DNA from: Mariannaea sp. PMI_226
Lineage: Eukaryota > Ascomycota > Sordariomycetes > Hypocreales > Nectriaceae
NCBI GenBank assembly: GCA_024336345.1
Contig: JANFOG010000009.1
Span: 1,975,784-2,039,783, forward strand
Length of the DNA stretch: 64,000 nt
Direction of reading: 5' to 3'
In this document: positions 1-41,471 of the stretch, piece by piece
Layout: each line of letters opens with the position of its first letter
Position numbering within the stretch: the first letter of the stretch is position 1
Notes under the pieces: model-generated
Told to the model about the DNA's origin: nothing
What the model saw: only the letters and a program-made list of their open reading frames with translations
The model's database searches: none
Made by a program: the position numbers and the translations under genes

Positions 1-480
1 AAAATAGCCTATTAATTATATTTAGATAAATATATTTAATTCTATAAACTAAGGCCATTGGAAGAATAAAGAAGCTAGAGGTATAATAATAATAATAAGA
101 TTAAATTAAGTATAAGGATATTAGATTGGGGTTTATTTAAGTTTTTATTAATAATCTTAAGTTAATGCTTAATTAATATTATTATAAGAAGGAAGAGTTT
201 ATCTTTATTGCTACTTATAAGTGCCTCTAGTGTGTATATTATATTATAAAGAAGGCATCTATAGCTTGTTGCTAAATTAATCTTCTGGGAAGCGTTTTTC
301 TAAATATTCTTCCATTTAGTATATTAAATTAATTTTATATATTATTATTAAATAACTCCTGCTTATAGTCTAAGCGCTAATTAGAGCTATTATAAGGCCT
401 AATTGGCCTGTGATGGTTATATGGCATATTTGCTTAAGAAAGCTATTAGCCGAGCTGGGGATGCTTTACGCATAATAGTC
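1..480. other. AT-rich, RIP-like tract without a gene
   Basis: The tract is strongly TA-biased, full of stops in every frame and carries no reading frame that resembles a protein. The bias matches the RIP-altered tracts further right. It is probably a decayed transposon edge, but no family is recognisable. Confidence 0.6.
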
Positions 481-28325: not shown

Positions 28326-29491
28326 TTTAACTTTCTATTCATTTTATTGTTAGCTACTAATTTTCCATTTCCTTCCAATTAGTCTTTATGGTATCTTGAT
28401 CTTAGTATTTCAGGAACACACATTCATTCTATTTCTTAATCTTTAGCCTCAGTATGTGTATCTATATGTGACTTATAGGGTAGGCTGGCAGGAGATGGTC
28501 GCAGCTGAGGTAGCTCTGGGAAACAGCACGTGGGAGTCCCTTGCTGTAGGGAAGGTCGCTTACCCTATAGCCAGGTTTCGGTCAGCTCCAGCATCTAACT
28601 TAGATACTCTTCTCTTAATAATAAGAATGTTGGATTTCCGTTTTCAATTTAAAAGATAACTTCCTACCCTACAATGAAAAATAAATCCTCCATCTAAATG
28701 TTGAACGTGCGGAGCACGTGAAACAGTCACGTGATGTGATTTGGGTCGGCTATGCGTGTGTTTTATGTGTGTTGTTTCTATTTGCTGTTTTCCCTGTATG
28801 ACCTCCATAGCAATTGCCCGGCTGGCCGGGCAAGCAGACAAGCAAGAAGGAGGAAGGATAGATATATCCTGCCTGGCATAGCCTAGATGATAGTCTCCTT
28901 TTCTCCTCATTAATAAATTGGTCTAAACAGGCTGCATACTGTTATTAGTCCCTATTTTCATAGTGTGTAGCTTGTTTAATACTAAAAGTGACCTACCCTA
29001 TAGCAAAATATATTTAGGGCTCCTCAATGCACGCTTTCAATTCCACGATTACCGAGTCACCTAGCCTACTCAATATTTCAAAATACCCCGACAAAGTCAG
29101 GATGGGAGACAGTCCCCCGCTCTACGGGTTCTATTTCGCATTGGCGGTATTAATTCCTATATGCTAAGTTCCTATCTCGACATACCCAACACCATTATGA
29201 ACCTGCCCCCCCGACTATCCCCTCAGAACATATATGATATAAATGGAGACTTATTTGGAGATAGAACTCTAGCTTAGGTTACTAGATTCACGGGGAGGCA
29301 GATAGCGGCGCTATTAGTATGTTTCCTCTATGCTTTCCAGCCTTAAAGCGGATCCTCGGCCCCAAAGGATAGTGGTTTTTTCAAATGTAAGTGAATTATC
29401 ACCTCCAGAAGAAGCCCTTAGAAACCCACAAATTTAGACAACCCCTACTTAAAAACCACCCCCTAGGTAACCAAGAAACGCAAAAGGCAAT
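28326..29491. other. Intergenic; two CACGTG boxes and a GC-rich hairpin
   Basis: No gene is seen. Two CACGTG/TCACGTG E-boxes stand 15 bp apart near 28714-28733, and a CCCGGCTGGCCGGG palindrome lies near 28818-28831. An 88-aa minus ORF overlapping these (28644-28910) is not convincing. Confidence 0.4.
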
Positions 29492-29666
29492 GCAGGAAAA
29501 CAGCAGGAAGGCAACGCAGGAAAACAGCAGGAATGCAACACAGGAAAGCAGCAAAGCAGCAGGAAAGCAACGCAGGAAAGCAGCAGGAAAGCAACGCAGG
29601 AAAACAGCAGGAATCCAACGCAGGAAAACAGCAGGAAAGCAGCGCAGGAAAGCAGCAGAAAACACC
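29492..29666 (+). repeat. 24-bp minisatellite
   Basis: About seven head-to-tail copies of a 24-bp unit, GCAGGAAAACAGCAGGAA plus GGCAAC with small variants; one copy is shortened. All three frames on both strands stay open across it because the unit length is a multiple of three and lacks stops, which explains the overlapping Gln/Lys-rich and Cys/Leu/Phe-rich ORFs. These are not genes. Confidence 0.85.
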
Positions 29667-29739
29667 TAAACTCCCAAACCACACCGCTAGCAACTACACA
29701 CCGCAAACTAGTTATTACTTTATATTATACCTACCAGCT

Positions 29740-29922
29740 AGGTTTTATAGCAGCAAGTCGCATACCATAGGACATTAAGTCCTTGCAAGAATCCCTAAGT
29801 TATTGGAAATCTTCCCTTAGCAATAAAAGCAACCTGTAAGCTAGTAGAAGAGGATTTGGCAGCAAGATCAAGGATGCTAGGGGATAAAGCTTTCCCCTTA
29901 CTATCTGCTGATAGCAACCTCC
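29740..29922 (-). repeat. Structured repeat unit 1 (candidate RNA element)
   Basis: The unit folds as two adjacent three-way junctions. Domain A is closed by AGGTT (29740-29744)/AACCT (29831-29835) and holds hairpin 1, AGGAC/GTCCT (29769-29773/29779-29783), and hairpin 2, CTAAG/CTTAG (29795-29799/29816-29820). Domain B is closed by GAGG(A)TT (29850-29856)/AACCTC (29916-29921) and holds AGGGG/CCCCT and CTATC/GATAG hairpins. Junction strands TGCAAGAATC and CAATAAAAGC are shared with the other units. The strand given is inferred from A.C mismatches that become G.U pairs on the minus strand. Confidence 0.6.
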
Positions 29923-30043
29923 ATTATATTATAAAAGCAATATTGAGCCCCCAGAACCCAGTATAAGAAAAAGCCCCCCGAACCCACTATAGGAAAAAGC
30001 CCCCAGAAAACACGACATGTAACTCAAACGGCACCTACCAACT

Positions 30044-30198
30044 AGGTTTTCCAGCAGCAAAGCGCATACTGTAGGAACATAATTCCTTACACAAATCCCT
30101 AAGGGCTTATGAAAGTTCCCTTAGCAATAAGTGCAACCTGCAAGCTAGTAGAGAAGGATTTGGCAATGTGAGAATGCTATCTAGTGATAACAACCTTC
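30044..30198 (-). repeat. Structured repeat unit 2
   Basis: Same plan as unit 1. The closing stem is AGGTT/AACCT (30044-30048/30135-30139), hairpin 1 AGGAA/TTCCT (30073-30077/30083-30087) and hairpin 2 CTAAGGG/CCCTTAG (30099-30105/30118-30124). The domain B stem is GAAGG(A)TT/AACCTTC (30153-30160/30192-30198), with a TATC/GATA hairpin. The GGGG hairpin of domain B is missing, so this unit is about 30 nt shorter. Confidence 0.6.
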
Positions 30199-30274
30199 TA
30201 CATACCACCAAGAGTAATATGAAGCCCCCAGACAACCCACCAAAAGACACATCAAAACTTAGTACCCACTAGCT

Positions 30275-30456
30275 AGGATTTCTGGCTACATAGCGTATGC
30301 CATAGGGATTAGATCCCTTGCAAGAATCCCTAAAGTAAATATCTTACTTTAGCAATAAAAGCAACCTATAAGCTAATGGGGAAGGTTTTGGCAGCTATAT
30401 AAAAATAACTAACAAGGGAAAAGCTTCCCCTTTACTATCTTCTGATAGTAACCTTC
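30275..30456 (-). repeat. Structured repeat unit 3
   Basis: The closing stem is AGG(A)TT/AACCT, hairpin 1 AGGGA/TCCCT (30304-30308/30314-30318) and hairpin 2 a perfect 9-bp stem CTAAAGTAA/TTACTTTAG (30330-30338/30344-30352). The domain B stem is GAAGGTT/AACCTTC (30381-30387/30450-30456), with AAGGG/CCCTT and ACTATC/GATAGT hairpins. Hairpin 2 is longest here, which makes this the clearest copy. Confidence 0.6.
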
Positions 30457-30747
30457 TTCTATACTTGTAACGTATACGCAACCCCACAGACCCCACCCAT
30501 AAGGTATTAGATCACCCATTAGAACCTCCCCAGACTAGGTGAGGGAAATCCGTCAGAACCCAGCCTGGCTTGGTGAGGGAACTTAAATACCTCATAATAT
30601 ATCAGTTAGGAGTAGCTTTGCTCCCCTTATTCCCTAAGGAATGTGCCATCTGTCCACCCGCTTACCCTCGATAGCAAATATCAGTTATAATTTTATGTCC
30701 CTATATGAGCCCCCACTAGCTCACTGCTTCCAATAATTGCACTAACT

Positions 30748-30929
30748 AGGTTTTGCAGTAGCTGATACGCATACTATAGGAATTATATTCCTTGCTAAAA
30801 TCCTTAAGATAAATAGCCTTACCTTAACAATAATGGCAACCTATAAGCTAGCACAGGAGGTTTTGTTAGCAAAGTCAAACCTTATTAGGGGATATAATTG
30901 CCCCTTACTACCAGCTAATAGTAACCTCC
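30748..30929 (-). repeat. Structured repeat unit 4
   Basis: The closing stem is AGGTT/AACCT (30748-30752/30838-30842), hairpin 1 AGGAA/TTCCT (30778-30782/30788-30792) and hairpin 2 TTAAGATAA/TTACCTTAA with one A.C mismatch (30804-30812/30819-30827). The domain B stem is GGAGGTT/AACCTCC (30856-30862/30923-30929), with AGGGG/CCCCT and ACTA/TAGT hairpins. A more diverged fifth copy may lie at about 31375-31465. Confidence 0.6.
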
Positions 30930-31139
30930 TTGGTCCTAGAGTACACCAAACTCTAGACCTAGCATATATAAATATATACCCCCAGAACCCACTGTGTGTA
31001 AATATATGCCCCTAGAACCCACTGGCTCCGGAGTGCACCAATCTCCAGAGCATAGTAAGGTGCTATATCACCCATCTAAATGGTGCCAAACCAAGTGAGA
31101 AGAATCCATTAGAATAAGGTTCGGCACCATAAGGGAGGC

Positions 31140-32180
31140 ACCCAAGCCTGACTAAAACTAGCCAGATAACAATCATATGCTAGGGTTGGCCACTACCACA
31201 TATCACCACAGTAGGAGAATATCTATATTACTAACTATGCCCACCGAAGGCTTTTACTCCCACAATCACCCCACTAAAGTAATATTCTATTTTCCCTATC
31301 TAGCTTCCCAAGATATTTTATAAGATACCCCTAGCAGGAGGACTATACTTGCCTAGCTTTATCTATTGTGGATTCTATTGGGTGGGGTTACCCCCTATAT
31401 CTCCTAGGAAATCCTTAGAAGCCCTTTTATTAGCAATAGTGGAAACCACCCACCATCTGCTTATAGGCATATCAGGTAGCTATTAGAGCAGGTTCGCTGG
31501 TAATACTTTCATTATATCTACTTGCTAGCAAGACTATAGCCTATAAGTATATATAAATTAATATATAGTGGTTATTATTAAGATAAAGTATAGATAAGGT
31601 ACATTATTTTCATTTTAGTAAGGCCTAAGCTATTGAAATAATATTATAGTTAGGGATGTTCAGTTTGCCCTATGGTAAGAAGAGCTTCTTATAATGGTCT
31701 GATCGGTTCCCAAGGGATAAACCAGGTTGCAATAGGTTTATATTGGCAGAACGGTTGAGGCGTTATACTAAGCAATAGCGGAAGAGTCACTTAGAGTATT
31801 ATATCTAATAATGCACAAATAGATTGTGGTAATTAAATTATATTAAAAGCTAAATAGCTAAGTAGGCTATTTAGGGAATAGATGGGGTTTATATACTAGC
31901 TACTATCTTGGGTTTGCGAAGGTTCGGTATTAAACCTAAACGAACTCTATTAGATTTCTATTCTTAAATTATAATTTAGAATTATAATTTATAGTATTAA
32001 ATTATAAAATAAATTATAATCCGGTTCCTAGATTACGGTTTAGAATTGTGATCTATTGCTAATTGGTAAGAAATTTATGGGGCCATATATATATAATTTA
32101 AGGCTGATTAAAACATAATATAATATCTCCCCTCCGAAGGTCTTATCCTTAAGGCCAATAAGTAGGCCTATTTCAAATTT
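31140..32180. other. AT-rich spacer, no gene seen
   Basis: The left part has moderate composition and may contain a fifth diverged structured unit. From about 31540 on the sequence is RIP-like AT-rich with no usable frame. Confidence 0.4.
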
Positions 32181-32188
32181 CTCATTGG

Positions 32189-32940
32189 TTGGCCCAACTT
32201 AGACTTCTTAACATTCGTGATACTAAGCTAATAATTATGTTAGACTATATTTCCAAGCGCAAGCCTCAATTAATTAAAAAGGTCTCAAAAGAAGACAATA
32301 AGACTGCTAAATATAATTCTCTTTTTGCTTTTGCTAAATTAAATAACAATCCCGCTAATATATTGTGCACATTCTATTTTAAATATAAGAAGAAGTGCAG
32401 AATAGAGAATATTAGTTAGTTAAATAGGTATATTAAGTACATTAAATATAATCGCATTTACAATGGTATTAGGGTGGCTTCCTTATATAGGTCTTTTTTT
32501 TTCCTTATATATATTATTCTTTGCTGACTGTTATAGTAAATAAGTTGGTTAATTAGTAGAAAAAGTTGGAATAAGAAGAGGAGGAGGCTAGTGAGAAGAT
32601 TTTGGTATTATATAAATAGCTGGCAAAGTTATAGAGTTTTTTAGCCATTACTATAAGTTATCTTACTTATATATGAAAAATAAGGAAAAAGGTTAAGGAG
32701 TATGGTTCTGATTTATTTACTTAGGGTATGGCTAAATTAAATAAGGAGGATGGAATCCTTTTTGTTCTTAATTTTAATAAGCAGCATATTTTAAGTGATT
32801 TGCATTATCTAGGTGTTCTAGATAATGTAGATTGATTGTCTTTAGGCTTGGGTTATGATTTTGATAATATTATTTTCTCTTTGGGTTCTGGTATTGTTAG
32901 TGAAAGTTCTTCAAAAGCCATTAGGAGTATGTAAAGTATT
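32189..32940 (+). pseudogene. Degenerate ORF remnant, unrecognised
   Basis: A 76-aa ORF (MAQLRLLNIRDTKLIIMLDY...) is followed in discontinuous frames by Lys/Glu-rich helical text and a short acidic Gly/Ser-rich end near 32860-32930. The order resembles the helical plus acidic tail of small fungal repeat-associated proteins, but too much is lost to assign it. Heavy TA bias shows RIP. Confidence 0.35.
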
Positions 32941-35900
32941 CCGATGGTTCCCATAAATTTTCGTTTTCCTCATATCCTTTCCATTTCACTAGATATTCAA
33001 TTTTACCTTTTTTCTTTCTTATATCAAGTATTTATTCTACTTTATATTCTTCTGGTCTATCGACTTCTACTTTAAATATTTGTTTTTCTATAATAATTAT
33101 ATTTTTATTAATGATTTTGAATAGTGAGATATAAAAGATCGGGTGGATCTTAATTTCTTTAGGTAAGTCAATTTTATAATTATTTTCTAAAATTTTCTTC
33201 TTGATTGGGTATAGTCCAATATATTTATAATTAAGTTTTTAATTTAGTCTTTTAATTATAATGTTTTTTATAATAATAAGGATTATATCTCCTTTTAAGA
33301 AGGTTGATCTTTTTAATCTTTTTTTATTATAGTGCTTTTTATATTGATTTTATATAAAAGAAAGTTCTATGTATAGTTCTTTATGTAGATTTTTGAGTTT
33401 ATTAATTTTAAGTATAGCTACTAGTGTGATGGGTCCCTTTTCCATTGGTATTCTATAGGCATTTAGGGTGAACCTAAAGTTGGCATAAGCTAATATTAAT
33501 TTTGTGCTTTTATTATAGGCAATATTCTAAGTAAGTTATACAATTAACAACTTCTCAACCTAATTATCTTATCTATAATTAATATAGCATCAAAGGTATA
33601 TTTTTAGTATTTAATTTATTCTTTCTATCTATCCATCAACCTATAGTCAATATATTGTGGTGAGCTTATAGTTTAAGCCAATCCTATCCATTAGGCATTA
33701 TTAAAAATTCGAAAAGAATGGTGATTCTTTATCTAAGATAATCTCAATTAGCAGTCTATATATATTAATAATATTTCTTATAAAAATATATAAAAACTAT
33801 TCTACATCTATTGCTTTTTAATATAATATAAAGTATAAGAATTTAGTAAGTCTATTAATAATAATTAGAATGTTATTATAGGCAGTATCTATTGCTAGGT
33901 CTAATAATAGGGGTAGCTTTATAATAAAGTCTATTGTGATTATATCCTATGGTCATGCTGTGATTGGTAGTGGCTGCAATTCTCTGTATGGTTTGTGTCT
34001 TTATGCCTTTATTTTGGTATAAATAATGTATATTTATATAATTTTTTAAATGGTTTTCTTAATTTTGGGAAATATAAATATCATCTTAATTCATTCTAGG
34101 GTTTTTATAATTCTTTAATATCTATGGAGTGGGTATTTATATATTTATCTAATGAGTAGTTCCTTTAGTTCTTTGGGTATTTATTATTTATTTATTTTCT
34201 TATCGTTTGGTAATTATTTATTATACTTCTGGATTTGCTATAGTAGTGGGTTTCCCTGTTCCACTTTGTGTATAGCGATTCCTTCTTTGGGTATTTCTTC
34301 CCTCATTATTGTATTTAGTCATTTGATTATCTTTTTCCAAGTTATTATAATATACTTCTATCTGAGGTGTCCTGCGTTAGTATAGCTTAGAAGTTATTTA
34401 TTGATCTTAGGTTATCCTATATTAAGGTCGGTTCTCCAGCTAATAGTATTTGCTCTATTGTTTTCCATTTTCTTAATATGAATGATAATATAGTTAAATT
34501 TTGCTAGGATTTTTGCATATTATAGTTATTATTTATTGAGTTCTTATGTTATAGCGAAATATATAATATTCTTATAATTTATAAAGACTTTAATTTAGTA
34601 ATGGGTTTTTAATAAATAATATTTAAATTTTTTAAAAATATTAATTATTATAAGAAATTCTTTATTGTAGATAGGGTAGTTAAGCTCTGCTCTATATAAT
34701 TTATATAAGTAGAATGCTATTAAGTATAGCTTACTATTATTATTTTATTGTTCTAATTGTACTCCTAGGGCAAAGTCTAATATATTGGTCTTTAGTTTGA
34801 TAGGTTTTTATAGATTGAACATTTTGAGAATTAGTTTGCTAAATATTAACTATTTGATTTCTTTAAAGGCGGTTTGGGCCTTAGTGGTAAATTTGAATTT
34901 GATGTCTTTTTTAGTTAATTTAGTAAGGGGTATTACTATTTTTCCGAAATTTCTAAGGAACTTCCAATAATAGTTAGCAAATCTTAGGAAGGCTTGTATT
35001 TCTTTAATTATTATTAGTTCTAGCCAATCTTTAATTACTAATATTTTCTTAAGGTTTATTTTTATTTTATTATAGGAGATATAATGTCCTAAGAAGTTTA
35101 TTTTTACTATATAGAAGTGGCTTTTCTTTGGTTTAATTAGAAGCTTTGTGTTTTATAGTACTTATAGTATTTTATAAATATATTCTATATATTCTTCTTT
35201 ATTATTTAAAAAGATTAGGATATTGTTTAGATAGTATATTATAAATATGTTAAGGTATTTATATAATATATTGTTAATTATTTATTAAAATGTAGTTAGC
35301 GCATTAATGAGTCTAAAGGGCATAATAAGATATTTATATAGTCTGAATTTTATTTAAAATATAGTTTTCCATTTATGTCTTTTAGTAATATAAATTAGAT
35401 TATAGGCTCCCTTAAGATTAAGTGTGGTATAATATTTCTTGCCTTGTAATCGATCCTTTAGTTCCTTAATTAGGGGTAATGGTATTTTGTTTTTAATCAT
35501 TATATTATTTAGCCTGCAGTAGTCTATAATTAGTTAGAGCTTGCCGTTCTTTTTGGGAATGAATATAATTGAATATCCTACTATTAACTTTAATATTTTA
35601 ATATATTCTTTTCTTAATATTTCTTTAAGGTATTTTTTAAATGTCTAAAGCTATGCTTTATTGAAATTGTAGATTTTGTGAAATGTGGGTATCATTCTGT
35701 CTTTTAGCCATATTTTATAGTCTTATTGGCTATATTTTGGTAGTCCTATCTTAAGTTCTTTTGCAAAGAGTTGTTTGTAAATCTAGTATTAGGGTGGAAT
35801 GTTCTTAAGTCTTTCTTCTTTTGTATTTAGTATCTTAATTCTTTTCTTAAGGTTTTTGTTCATTTGTGTAAATATTTTCTTAAGGAGTGCAATAATCTTT

Positions 35901-37920
35901 TATATACAATTCTTTAATCCTTTAGTCTATTTATATTATATTTCTTTAGGTATAAATAAGTTTATTATTTCTCTAGCTTGGCTTCCTCTATTTTTGTTAA
36001 TAAGGCCTTAAGATCTTATATCATTCGTTAAGTTATCTTTTTAATTATTGGCTACATTATCTCAAAAGGCTTGTACCTGGCTAGTGCGCTAGTCAATTAG
36101 TGGGTTAAATTGGTCTAGCTATGGATACCTAAGGACAATATTATATCCTCCAAGATCTATAATATTGAATTCTTCACTTTATATTTCTCCTTAAATAATA
36201 ACTTCTAGTTAATCAATCTATTGGTTAATCTATCTATTTTTATAGAAGAGGGCATTTCCTTTTATATTAGATATTTTATAAGGATATTCCTTATCCTTTT
36301 ATAATAATATTAGGTTATTAACCATTTGTGGGCTAATGGCATTTATATCTACTCCACTATTTATTAATGTAGTTAACCATTTTCCCTTAATTTATATTTA
36401 TAGTATTATTTTGCATTGTATTTATAGTATATTAGACTGTTTTATATTCCTTAGAGCCTTCTGTTGACTTTTCTAAATCTGCTCTGGCCACTCCTATTGC
36501 TTTTCTATAGGGGGCGATCCTTATTTTTTAATTCCTTTTTGATGGCTTGGATTTTCCTAACCAATATGCTTACTGAGGTGGTGGCTTCTTAGAACCTTTT
36601 TTTTACAAGCTTTTATACTTTGTGGTCTCTTCTAGTGTATTATAATACAATCTTTCCTTTAAAGTGGTATCTACATTCTTTATATAAGCAATCTTCTGGG
36701 CTAGTCTTATTTCTACATTCTTCGGGGTATGTATATTCTAATTGTTTAAGCTAGACTATATTGATATTAAAATATTGTTTGTTGATTTTATAGTCTTTAA
36801 GCTTTTGGTAAAGGTATGGGTCTCTGTGTGTAGTGTCTTTTGGTATTTAAATAGGGAATGCATTATTGAGGACCTTTTCCTCTATATATATTGTGTAATT
36901 ATGGTATATATATAATGCTTATAAGATAGAATGATGTTTTTTATTATTAATTCTTATCTTTCTATTATTATCCTTCTTCTATTTAGGAGTTTTATTATCT
37001 TTTGCCACTTTATAATATAAAATAGTATAAATATAAATTCTATTATATCTTCCTTCTGGCCCTAGGCTTAGTTAGGTTATGGTAAGTTCTCTTGCGAGCT
37101 ATTCTTATTTATTATTAGATTTACTTAATTAAATGCTTTCTTTTCTTTTAACTTTAGATAATATAAATATGATTTCCCAAATTGTGTTTTCTTCTTCTCC
37201 TAAATATGTATCTTATTTTATATTAATTGTGCTAAAAGTGTTATATCTTTTTATAGTGGTAGTGGTTTATTTATCCCATTTGGATTATTATGAGGGACCT
37301 TCATTTATAAAGTCTTCTAGATATATATCTTCCTATTGGATTAATAACCTTAAGTAGCAAGCTTATATTGCTTTATTTAATATAAGATAGGGTATTTATT
37401 AGAGTCCTTAATATATAATATTATATTTTTTGATTTTTATTATAAGTATGTTATCTACATCATTTAGGTTGGTATTTAATATATATTATTTTTCTTTATG
37501 CATTATTGCTAGTTTCTTATTATTATATCCTAAGTTCTAGTACTTTTTGGGTAGTGGGACTAAAGTCTATTTAATTCTATTTATAACTCCTATATACTTA
37601 TTTTATATTGGTTTTTTCTTTTCTTCTGGTTTGTATTTCCTTGTGTTAGGTTTATATATTAATGGGTATATATCTTCATATACTATATTATATCCTAAGC
37701 ATATTATCACTAAAATTTGGTTATTTTTGGTAAGGCAGACTAATTTATAGTTTTTTGGTATTAGTTTCCATCCTATAGGGGGTTCCCTAAAGGTTTATTC
37801 TTTTGCTAAGGTTTTCAATAGATATAATTTATAGTCCATTCCTCTTTTTTGGAATGCTTTATGCATTTCCTTGAGATTTCCTATAAGTATGTGATTCCAT
37901 ACGAAAATGTTGCCTATTTT
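32941..37920 (-). mobile_element. Ty3/gypsy retrotransposon, heavily RIP-mutated
   Basis: Reverse-strand translation shows gypsy pol order. The reverse transcriptase region at about 34800-35400 contains MPFRLINALTTF (normally MPFGLTNAPATFQ) and, about 40 residues on, the catalytic box as YLNN (35222-35233) instead of YxDD. It is followed by the NKEEYIEYIY...KPKKSHFY...FLGHYIS segment typical of fungal gypsy. The polymerase end lies leftwards. Both catalytic Asp codons have become Asn, consistent with G-to-A RIP. Stops are dense throughout. LTRs could not be recognised, so the limits are approximate. The element is inactive. Confidence 0.75.
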
Positions 37921-38030
37921 GGTAGGTCATTGCTACTAGATTTGGCGGCTTCTCCACATTACCTAGCCCCACACTGTAAGGCATCTTTGCATAAAGCCAA
38001 CCTTCCCGTTTCCTAAAACAGATTCAATAC

Positions 38031-38873: not shown

Positions 38874-41471
38874 ATGGCTCGAATCTCCAACCTCCCTAGA
38901 CGGGCTATGCAGCGACGCAAGATACCTCGAAACAGAGCTTCGGCCGGAAATCATTCACAATCCGTCCAGAAACCATGCAGTCAAGCCCAAGTTGGACAGA
39001 ACCGTGCAGACACAACACACAATGACGCCCAGGACTCGGTGTCCGAGTACTCGGATGGCAGTGAGCCTGAGTCTGAGGATGATCATAGTGATTCCATTCG
39101 GAAACCCTCACAGAATGCCCGTCCAGGCTCTAAAAAGGACCAGAGGAATTCACTTATGTCAGTTGATGGATCCAATGAAGCCTCAGACTCCGAGCTCGAC
39201 TCCGGTTCTAGTTCAGACTCGGATTTGGACTCTGGATATGCCAGTGCTGAAGAAGATCCGAACGAAGTAGCCGAATACTACAACAGGTTGATTGATCACT
39301 ATGAAGCAGAGGGACCAACAATGGCCAACCATGACGAAAATACGAAGAAAATGACCTACCCGGAAGAAAAAAGATGGAACAAGTATGCTGCTCCCCTTGA
39401 CCGCTAGGAGAATCTGGACTGACTCTAAATTGTGAGACAGGTTTTGCAAGGCAACTAAACGCGACCCCATTGAGTTGCTAAAGGCATGCAAGGTATGTAT
39501 TTTCAAAGCCTACTTACATTGGAGAGTAAAACACTTCAGAATCAAGAAAGAATCTTCTATCATGACCTACTGGAATGTTATCAGTATAGTATATGCCATG
39601 AAGATAGCGCGATGGATGGATGGTGGCGTACTTTATGATATTAGTAATGTTAGTTTCTATCTATTATTATAGTACTCTTATAAACTAATCAGTATTGCTA
39701 GTGGATTTACGCTAAACTTATGCCTAAATTTGATTTAAATATATCTAAAAAGGAGAAGTCTGGACTTTTTATTGAGGACTTGGACTTGATTCTTCACCAT
39801 CATTATATTTATGATGATCATGTATATATTCATGAAAGACTTTATGTACAGCTCGTGTTGATTCTAATTATTGCTGGTGCTACTACCACTCGACCTGATG
39901 CACTCATTGGCAATGTGCTATATAAGCATATCGAATTTCAGCTTTTTCCTCCAGGCCCTGGGGGAAATCGGTCTCGTCTGGGCTTGGTGGTGAATCTAGT
40001 GAAGGTCAAGAAGTCAGCGGGAGTATCCGAGAAGAAGATTTTCGGCTTTCATGAAGAAGACACCCTTCTGCATGATCCTATACTCCACATGCTATCTTTG
40101 GTGTTTGCCGATGGGGCATTTCTCAATGACTTTTCCAGTCCTGAACGAATCTATGAGATGGTTGTCCCGACGCACATGGACCGGGTGAAAATACCATGGA
40201 AAGAGGAATGGCGAGGACGACCAATTTTCCGCGATGTCGATGGCTTGAAAGTGTCGCTTGAGAAGGCTCTAAAGTATTGTAAGACAAGGGGGGATTTGAT
40301 ACGCCTTGGTCGAGCCTTGGGCTATGCTAAGAGGCTCGAGTTCTATGATATTCGCCGTGGGTCTGGTAAAAAGCTACATGGTAAGGGGGGAACTTTATTA
40401 CCATCTGAACGCTACTAACGGTTTACAGAAAAGCTCACCCCTGAGGAACGGAACAAGGCTATGGGCCACCGGCTAGAAGACTCATCTACTTATGTGCGAT
40501 ATTACATGACCGATTTCATTGGTGCAGATATACAAGCCATTACATTCGGCAGCGACCCACAGACTGATTTCGTCAATTTGATAAGCCGGCTTGTGCGTCA
40601 TGGGAATGCTCCAATAAAATTAACTGAAGATCAAAAAGATGAGATTGCCAATAATCCCAGATTAGTCAAGTATCTGCGAAAACGATCCCAAGCCATGGCG
40701 AGATTCAAGAAGCAAGGTTATCCAACCTATATAGCTGCAAAAAAGGCTAGTGTTGCTAAGCAGTATGAGAAATACCGGAAGAGAGTTGAGAGCTTGAGGA
40801 AGATGCTATTAACGAAATGTCTTGAACGCGCTATCTTGGAGTTTCACAAAACAATACACACTAAGGAAATCGACTAGCAGTTATAAGATATCAAGCCATC
40901 CGAACTACTGGCACCCTCGACAATCCAATATAAGCTTAAGGAAAGAGCTAAAGTGGCACGCTTATTCTCTCGAGCCGCTAATGTAAGCAACAGAGAGGAG
41001 CTTTTCGAGCTTCGGATGAAACTCATCCCGGCACTTACACGGCTCTGCAAGCGTCGGGAAAGTCCACGTCGCCTACAGAACCCACGCAAGTCCGTGAAAG
41101 CTGATTCACAGACCTCAACGTTATTCATCAATGAACAGCCCCATACTTCTTCTCAGCTGGAGGTAAAAGTGAAACATAATATTCCCATAGGTGCGACCGT
41201 TCCAAAAACACTACGCTTACAGGGAGCATTACGGACATGTCCCTTTTGCAGATGGCGAGATTCAGAAGTCAGCGAGGAGCAGCAGCAAAGGAAATGGCGA
41301 ATCGATAGTCTGGCAAGACATATTCATTCCCAGCATTTTCCGAAGATCGAAATGCCGTTTAATTGCCCCTACGGCGATTGTCAGGCAGTTCTCGGAACTA
41401 ACGAACACTTTGCCAACCATGCAGCTCGCGAGCATGGAGATCATTATCCGGTATCAATTATTCTAAAGTAA
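38874..41471 (+). pseudogene. DUF3435 tyrosine recombinase (Starship captain family), broken
   Basis: The N-terminal 177 codons (38874-39407) are basic and then Ser/Asp-rich. A frameshift and a TGA interrupt before 39440-39648, which encodes the helical arm domain (LHWRVKHFRIKKESSIMTYW). An intron (39649-39701) leads to WIYAKLMPKFDLNISKKEKSG and the catalytic domain, with the box I Arg in GATTTRPDAL. A second intron (40381-40428, CTAAC branch) follows FYDIRRGSGKKL and leads to LTPEERNKAMGHR and the Tyr region SSTYVRYYM. TAG and TAA stops at 40875-40883 precede a C-terminal part with two C2H2-like fingers (CPFCRWRD...H...H and CPYGDCQ...H...H), ending at 41471. DUF3435 proteins are site-specific recombinases that mobilise giant fungal Starship elements. 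Catalytic residues are kept, but at least four lesions make this copy inactive as read. Confidence 0.85.

Follow-up and report, generated by a model that had tools for sequence, protein, structure and literature searches.

A tandem array of covarying junction modules in Mariannaea sp. PMI_226: a candidate multicopy family of long structured noncoding RNA genes, predicted on the minus strand

The window, i.e. the whole stretch of 64,000 nucleotides of Mariannaea sp. PMI_226 that was analyzed, carries four same-direction units at 29732-29924, 30036-30200, 30267-30458, and 30740-30931, as an earlier note on this DNA had proposed. Each unit consists of two related halves, the A and B modules, in agreement with the internal dimer suggested there. 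In the list below, which also covers the neighboring domains, repeats, and hairpins, z values refer to the MFE on the minus strand, R3 is the minus-strand A-module model (37 pairs), and R2 is a plus-oriented B model.

28982-29483, minus strand: D5 end domain, present at three loci; rich in C>T/G>A changes in the window copy
29484-29662, minus strand: 24-nt repeats, pyrimidine-rich on this strand
29732-29847, minus strand: module A1, four-way junction with an 8-bp outer stem, a 3-nt bulge, an inner stem, and three arms (z -3.12; R3 119.5 bits)
29845-29924, minus strand: module B1, smaller four-way junction with a closing stem and three hairpins (z -1.36; R2 93.1 bits for 29839-29924)
30036-30151, minus strand: module A2, four-way junction (z -3.43; R3 115.8 bits)
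30143-30200, minus strand: module B2, reduced, lacking the middle hairpin (R2 54.2 bits)
30267-30379, minus strand: module A3, four-way junction (z -4.09; R3 120.6 bits)
30377-30458, minus strand: module B3, four-way junction (z -4.18; R2 89.5 bits for 30371-30458)
30740-30854, minus strand: module A4, four-way junction (z -2.70; R3 115.5 bits)
30852-30931, minus strand: module B4, closing stem retained, own MFE not a four-way junction (z -1.54; R2 90.2 bits for 30846-30931)
30934-30958, minus strand: hairpin with a 7-nt loop, UUGGUGU (UUGGUGC in most other copies)
31026-31050, minus strand: second hairpin, loop UUGGUGC
31139-31690, minus strand: D2 domain, matched at each of the five loci; many C>T/G>A changes in the window copy and no significant fold alone

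The architecture of the modules departs from the first description, which had three-way junctions joined by fixed strands. An extra arm between the closing stem and the helix called hairpin 1 makes the module four-way, a form seen in the A halves and in 5 of 6 B halves whose minus strand was folded. The junction strands also vary, with TGCAAGAATC replaced by TACACAAATC in unit 2 and by TGCTAAAATC in unit 4, while both CAATAAGTGC and CAATAATGGC are found for CAATAAAAGC. The middle hairpin of the unit 2 B half is missing in the window copy (contig C25) and in the copy on contig C23, and is present in that on C11. The C23 orthologue of B4 has a four-way junction as its MFE (z -4.30), and broken pairs are present in several helices (A and B tables, structures of both strands).

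Copies of the locus were sought in the genome (42,196,573 bases, 25 contigs) with DNA and pattern searches only, by which more diverged copies may be missed. Unit 1 as a BLAST query gives 11 matches, and local alignment finds all four units, in unchanged order, on C25 (the window), on C11 (locus at 114-119 kb), and on C23 (locus at 1366-1370 kb), with a single unit at C23:1463.6 kb. D2 as a query finds five loci, the fifth of which is very diverged (L033, C23:2343.7 kb), and the same five are recovered when this diverged copy is itself the query. About 290 nt from the L033 copy of D2, which was located independently of the modules, lies a diverged module that was held out and that scores 28.7 bits (E 5e-5) with R3; the plus-strand A model gives it 21.7 bits, a comparison that is supportive only, since the two models differ in pairs (37 vs 26). 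Across 13 further loci of the genome, R3 matched only the four already-known C11 modules (L013). A motif match on C19 was dropped, as the fetched region contains no R3 match, and window 355-460 (R3 17.2 bits, E 0.057) is taken as a chance hit. Exact D2 patterns were not found in prokaryote genomes, and one of them was not found in viral contigs either; a module pattern hit viral contigs 4 times, but these matches were rejected because none carries an R3 match.

The C11 and C23 loci are similar over ~4.6 kb, including a degenerate minisatellite (CTAGCATCGCCAACG...) on the D2 side (L009 745-1367 on C11; L010 1245-1624 on C23), and C25 and C11 additionally share a ~1.8 kb flank at 92%. Two open frames lie beside the C11 locus, on the minus strand (L009 5445-6928), in a stretch that is 92% alike at C25, and neither has a Pfam match. 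Among C25, C11, and C23, the units do not change more slowly than the spacers (identity of 84.9-94.3% vs 84.3-94.5%), and gap columns are rarer in units (0-9.4% vs 1.5-28.6% in spacers).

The earlier note had further claimed that the stems differ by paired changes, and both the pair counts and the covariation scores of the A and B halves bear this out. In the plus-strand structures, standard pairs fill 86.9% of 336 cells in the A halves and 89.8% of 186 cells in the B halves, with a covariation score that is higher than in 500 of 500 shuffles and in all six slid versions for both; the number of further pair types is a weaker measure, as 155 of 500 shuffles are as high for A and all 500 for B. 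The minus-strand structures pair 94.6% of 479 cells in A and 94.3% of 244 cells in B, as opposed to 30-63% when the structures are slid. Both sides have changed in 9 of 37 A pairs (2 of 500 shuffles as high) and in 5 of 20 B pairs (39 of 500), and the covariation score is 0.263 against 0.180 in shuffles for A and 0.251 against 0.193 for B, with no shuffle of 500 as high in either case. Further pair types on this strand show no excess over shuffles (70 of 500 as high for A, 435 of 500 for B). The helices thus covary beyond shuffles and slid controls, in structures derived from the minus strand, and they do so with nine further modules per half and one held-out diverged module, all from the same genome. 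The thirteen model sequences are relatives from this one genome, and shuffle counts cannot be read as probabilities when the rows are related.

Pairs that change between copies also stay paired more often on the minus strand than on the plus strand. Specifically, among orthologous modules, changed pairs are still paired in 49 of 69 cases on the minus strand vs 9 of 69 on the plus strand for A, and in 17 of 33 vs 8 of 33 for B; among units within one locus, the figures are 152 of 198 vs 59 of 198 for A and 80 of 105 vs 29 of 105 for B. The consensus structures (alignments A5 and A6) were derived from minus-strand folds, so that these minus-strand counts lean that way.

A count of mismatches in the plus-derived helices, which has no minus bias, points to the same strand, with the proviso that the extra helices were chosen after looking. 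Of 613 cells, 512 are Watson-Crick, 57 are A-C, 13 are G-T, and 31 are other, while a control with partners slid by 1-4 columns gives an A-C:G-T ratio of 813:674. Counted as distinct events, the ratio is 37:7 (binomial 3.8e-5), and with only the helices of the earlier note it is 13:4 (P 0.056). Column make-up alone already favors A-C (shuffle means of 71 A-C and 29 G-T), and the strand argument therefore rests on the slid control. An A-C mismatch on one strand corresponds to a U-G wobble on the complementary one, and a DNA hairpin should be indifferent to strand; from sequence, the folded molecule is therefore best interpreted as a minus-strand RNA rather than a DNA hairpin. The suggestion of selection on RNA or DNA hairpin structure thus stands as far as a folded nucleic acid is concerned, and the A-C excess makes RNA the likelier form, with the strand reversed relative to the proposal. 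Such counts of A-C vs G-T mismatches can help to separate RNA from DNA hairpins and to choose a strand from genome sequence alone.

Folding agrees with this choice. Each of the four window A modules, folded alone on the minus strand, adopts the same four-way junction with the z values listed above, compared with -0.83, -2.25, -2.52, and +0.07 for modules 1-4 on the plus strand. The first minus-strand set comprised 7 of 13 A and 6 of 13 B modules; on this strand, A11_1 has no junction (z -1.35), A11_3 has a partial one (z -2.76), and A23_3 has the junction (z -2.36). Minus-strand folding recovers at least 34 of 37 consensus pairs in 10 of 13 A modules (36 of 36 in one of these), with weak recoveries by the own MFE in A11_1 (13 of 37), A11_3 (26 of 37), and A23b (3 of 36), while the best A module on the plus strand recovers 30 of 37. 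For the 13 A modules, the mean z is -2.43 on the minus strand vs -1.27 on the plus strand, with 8 of 13 vs 4 of 13 below -2; for the B modules, 7 of 13 fall below -2 on each strand, with means of -3.05 (minus) and -2.15 (plus). By comparison, 50 control fragments have a mean z of -0.19 (minus) and -0.32 (plus), and 2 and 3 of them, respectively, fall below -2. The identical MFE shape arises in units that are ~20-25% different. Whole units folded at once are mostly uninformative (plus z -0.95, -2.76, and 0.01; minus -0.94), and when a further 12 pieces of the window core were folded, good folds were limited to 30935-31050 and 31050-31165, which gave them on either strand. Given the A-C excess and the better folding of the minus strand, the plus-strand reading of the earlier note was abandoned.

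The hairpins with UUGGUGC-type loops, in which stems change around a conserved 7-nt loop, are also found in L009, L010, and L011. Across 10 candidates, 13 A-C and 2 G-T mismatches occur in 80 cells, with 3 of the 13 contributed by a candidate that does not fold (C23c); the stretch with the first of these hairpins folds better on the plus strand (-4.2 vs -2.4 on the minus). The idea that D2 and D5 are self-standing structured domains is unsupported, as neither outdoes its shuffles when folded alone: the L010 copy of D2 has z -1.13 (minus) and -0.51 (plus), and the L009 copy of D5 has +0.35 and -0.58. RNAalifold on four of six alignment rows of D2 gives -143.5 (minus) and -121.1 (plus), and 17 of 34 varying pairs of the minus-strand result are broken in some copy.

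The earlier note could name no class for the element, and searches against Rfam and for tRNAs likewise returned no match at threshold. Specifically, none of the 4227 families of Rfam 15 matches the window at the gathering threshold; lax scans give one match in L009-L011 (E 4.6) and, in array stretches of L010 and of the window, four each (best E 0.36), none of which reaches its gathering score. Two H/ACA snoRNA models appear below threshold (E 0.7 and 4.5) in one of the lax scans. With bacterial settings, ARAGORN reports no tRNA or tmRNA in the window, L009, L010, L011, or L033. Plus-strand open frames cross unit 4 (138 aa on C11, 110 aa on C23) and show no clear coding sign, with changes by codon position of 10, 12, and 17 and gap runs of 9 and 59 bases, and 10 open frames tested from the C11 and C23 cores have no Pfam match.

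Likenesses to known systems are partial. The large ornate RNAs GOLLD, ROOL, and OLE (PMC12286853) are likewise long multi-branched noncoding RNAs with many helices. They are bacterial, unlike this fungal array without an Rfam match. We know of no tandem repetition of one module pair in their plan. The Xist A-repeat and roX are scaffold lncRNAs built from several copies of one structured module; they are metazoan and consist of other modules, and what they share with the array, by description only, is a repeated structured module within one RNA. tRNAs and tRNA-derived SINE dimers share the cloverleaf outline and the two joined halves, but ARAGORN finds no tRNA here and only five array loci were found; arm and loop sizes differ from those of tRNA as well. 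The motifs of Li and Breaker (2017; PMC5640933) are also candidate structured fungal RNAs found by comparison; the likeness is one of description, and the main text nowhere uses the words tandem, repeat, or copies. Among the titles and abstract openings of the literature searched, we found no precedent for such an array in fungi.

The window copy shows an excess of one kind of change. Among its 224 private changes, 163 are C>T or G>A, and within 28983-31690 their density per kb is 167 in D2, 78 in D5, and 15 in the array. By site, they affect 42% of CpG, 23% of CpA, 8% of CpT, and 5% of CpC. The direction and the CpG/CpA context fit the damage expected from RIP or methylation, and such dense changes suggest that the window copy may be a damaged or silenced relic. 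Standard RIP indices do not single it out (TA/AT of 1.31 vs 1.32 and 1.22; (CA+TG)/(AC+GT) of 1.14 vs 1.16 and 1.16).

We give an even chance to the reading in which the locus is one copy of a small multicopy family of long structured noncoding RNA genes on the minus strand, with a transcript predicted from sequence and models. The chief rival, which overlaps with it, is a transposon-derived transcript: a decaying or non-autonomous element whose structure was kept only while its source was active, whose copies are now relics, and whose transcript may itself be a folded RNA. We regard this as possible, at clearly less than even chance. It would account for units that change about as fast as spacers, for the C>T/G>A load of the window copy, and for a further repeat at ~31690 with a related stretch near the L011 copy; it sits less well with the finding of only five loci, with the want of Pfam matches in the 10 core frames and the two frames neighboring the C11 locus, with RIP indices that do not set the window copy apart, and with the flank shared by C25 and C11, which looks like the outcome of a segmental duplication.

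A DNA-level origin, with hairpins or cruciforms whose arms were homogenized by template switching, or with MITE terminal inverted repeats, is disfavored, and we think it improbable. Perfect arms, e.g. CTAAAGTAA/TTACTTTAG, and short inverted repeats in the region are what it would predict, as would be strand symmetry, yet A-C:G-T is 57:13 in the helices and 13:2 in the second hairpin family, and the arms lie within a junction and recur along the array. This asymmetry does not fit ordinary MITE terminal inverted repeats, which the earlier note had named as what could undo its reading. Among the 14 inverted pairs listed for 28500-32000, none lies at both ends of the core as roughly delimited; one pair of 28 nt (79%) lies at 29142 and 30957. 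Equally improbable in our view is a chance pattern of inherited differences among related repeats with no structure under selection. The relatedness of the thirteen sequences and some broken pairs speak for such a pattern, while the low pairing of slid structures, the recognition of the held-out L033 module, and the same MFE in diverged units speak against it.

If the structured RNA reading holds, the locus would be transcribed from the minus strand, and selection has probably kept the fold. The predicted RNA would run from the minisatellite (in C11 and C23) through D2, the UUGGUGC-loop hairpins, and the B-A pairs of units 4, 3, 2, and 1 to the pyrimidine-rich repeats and D5. Expansion of one module pair to four would have preceded the spread of the locus to C25, C11, and C23. 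From the repetition and the loop conservation, we infer that such an RNA could serve as a scaffold whose repeated four-way junctions provide multiple similar sites at which one protein, or the junctions themselves, could bind; D2 would be its putative common functional end. A more doubtful extension is that the family represents a large ornate RNA of eukaryotes. Such a multicopy fungal RNA would comprise as many as eight cloverleaf modules in tandem, together with a conserved domain and hairpins with conserved loops, and would build a repetitive scaffold of RNA or of RNA and protein; in the literature searched, no such architecture has yet been described in fungi. If true, fungi would harbor a type of large repetitive RNA that Rfam lacks. 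Because the modules and the strand are specified and one copy was held out, Northern blots or chemical probing could test the prediction directly.

Other repeats lie around the locus. A short interspersed repeat at ~28700-28983 of the window is absent from the C11 copy and has further matches at many genome sites. The repeat that starts at ~31690 (window 31690-38000) accounts for 47 of the 49 matches listed and is, at a guess, LTR-like; it is followed by a stretch of 24-28% GC. An open frame of DUF3435 (PF11917), a family that includes Starship captains, lies at 39702-41471 and is interrupted by stops; a link to the array was rejected, as its matches at three genome places are not near other array copies. 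Finally, a lone 5.8S/ITS2 rDNA fragment is located on C12 (L042 800-960), with the only 5.8S among the matches listed.
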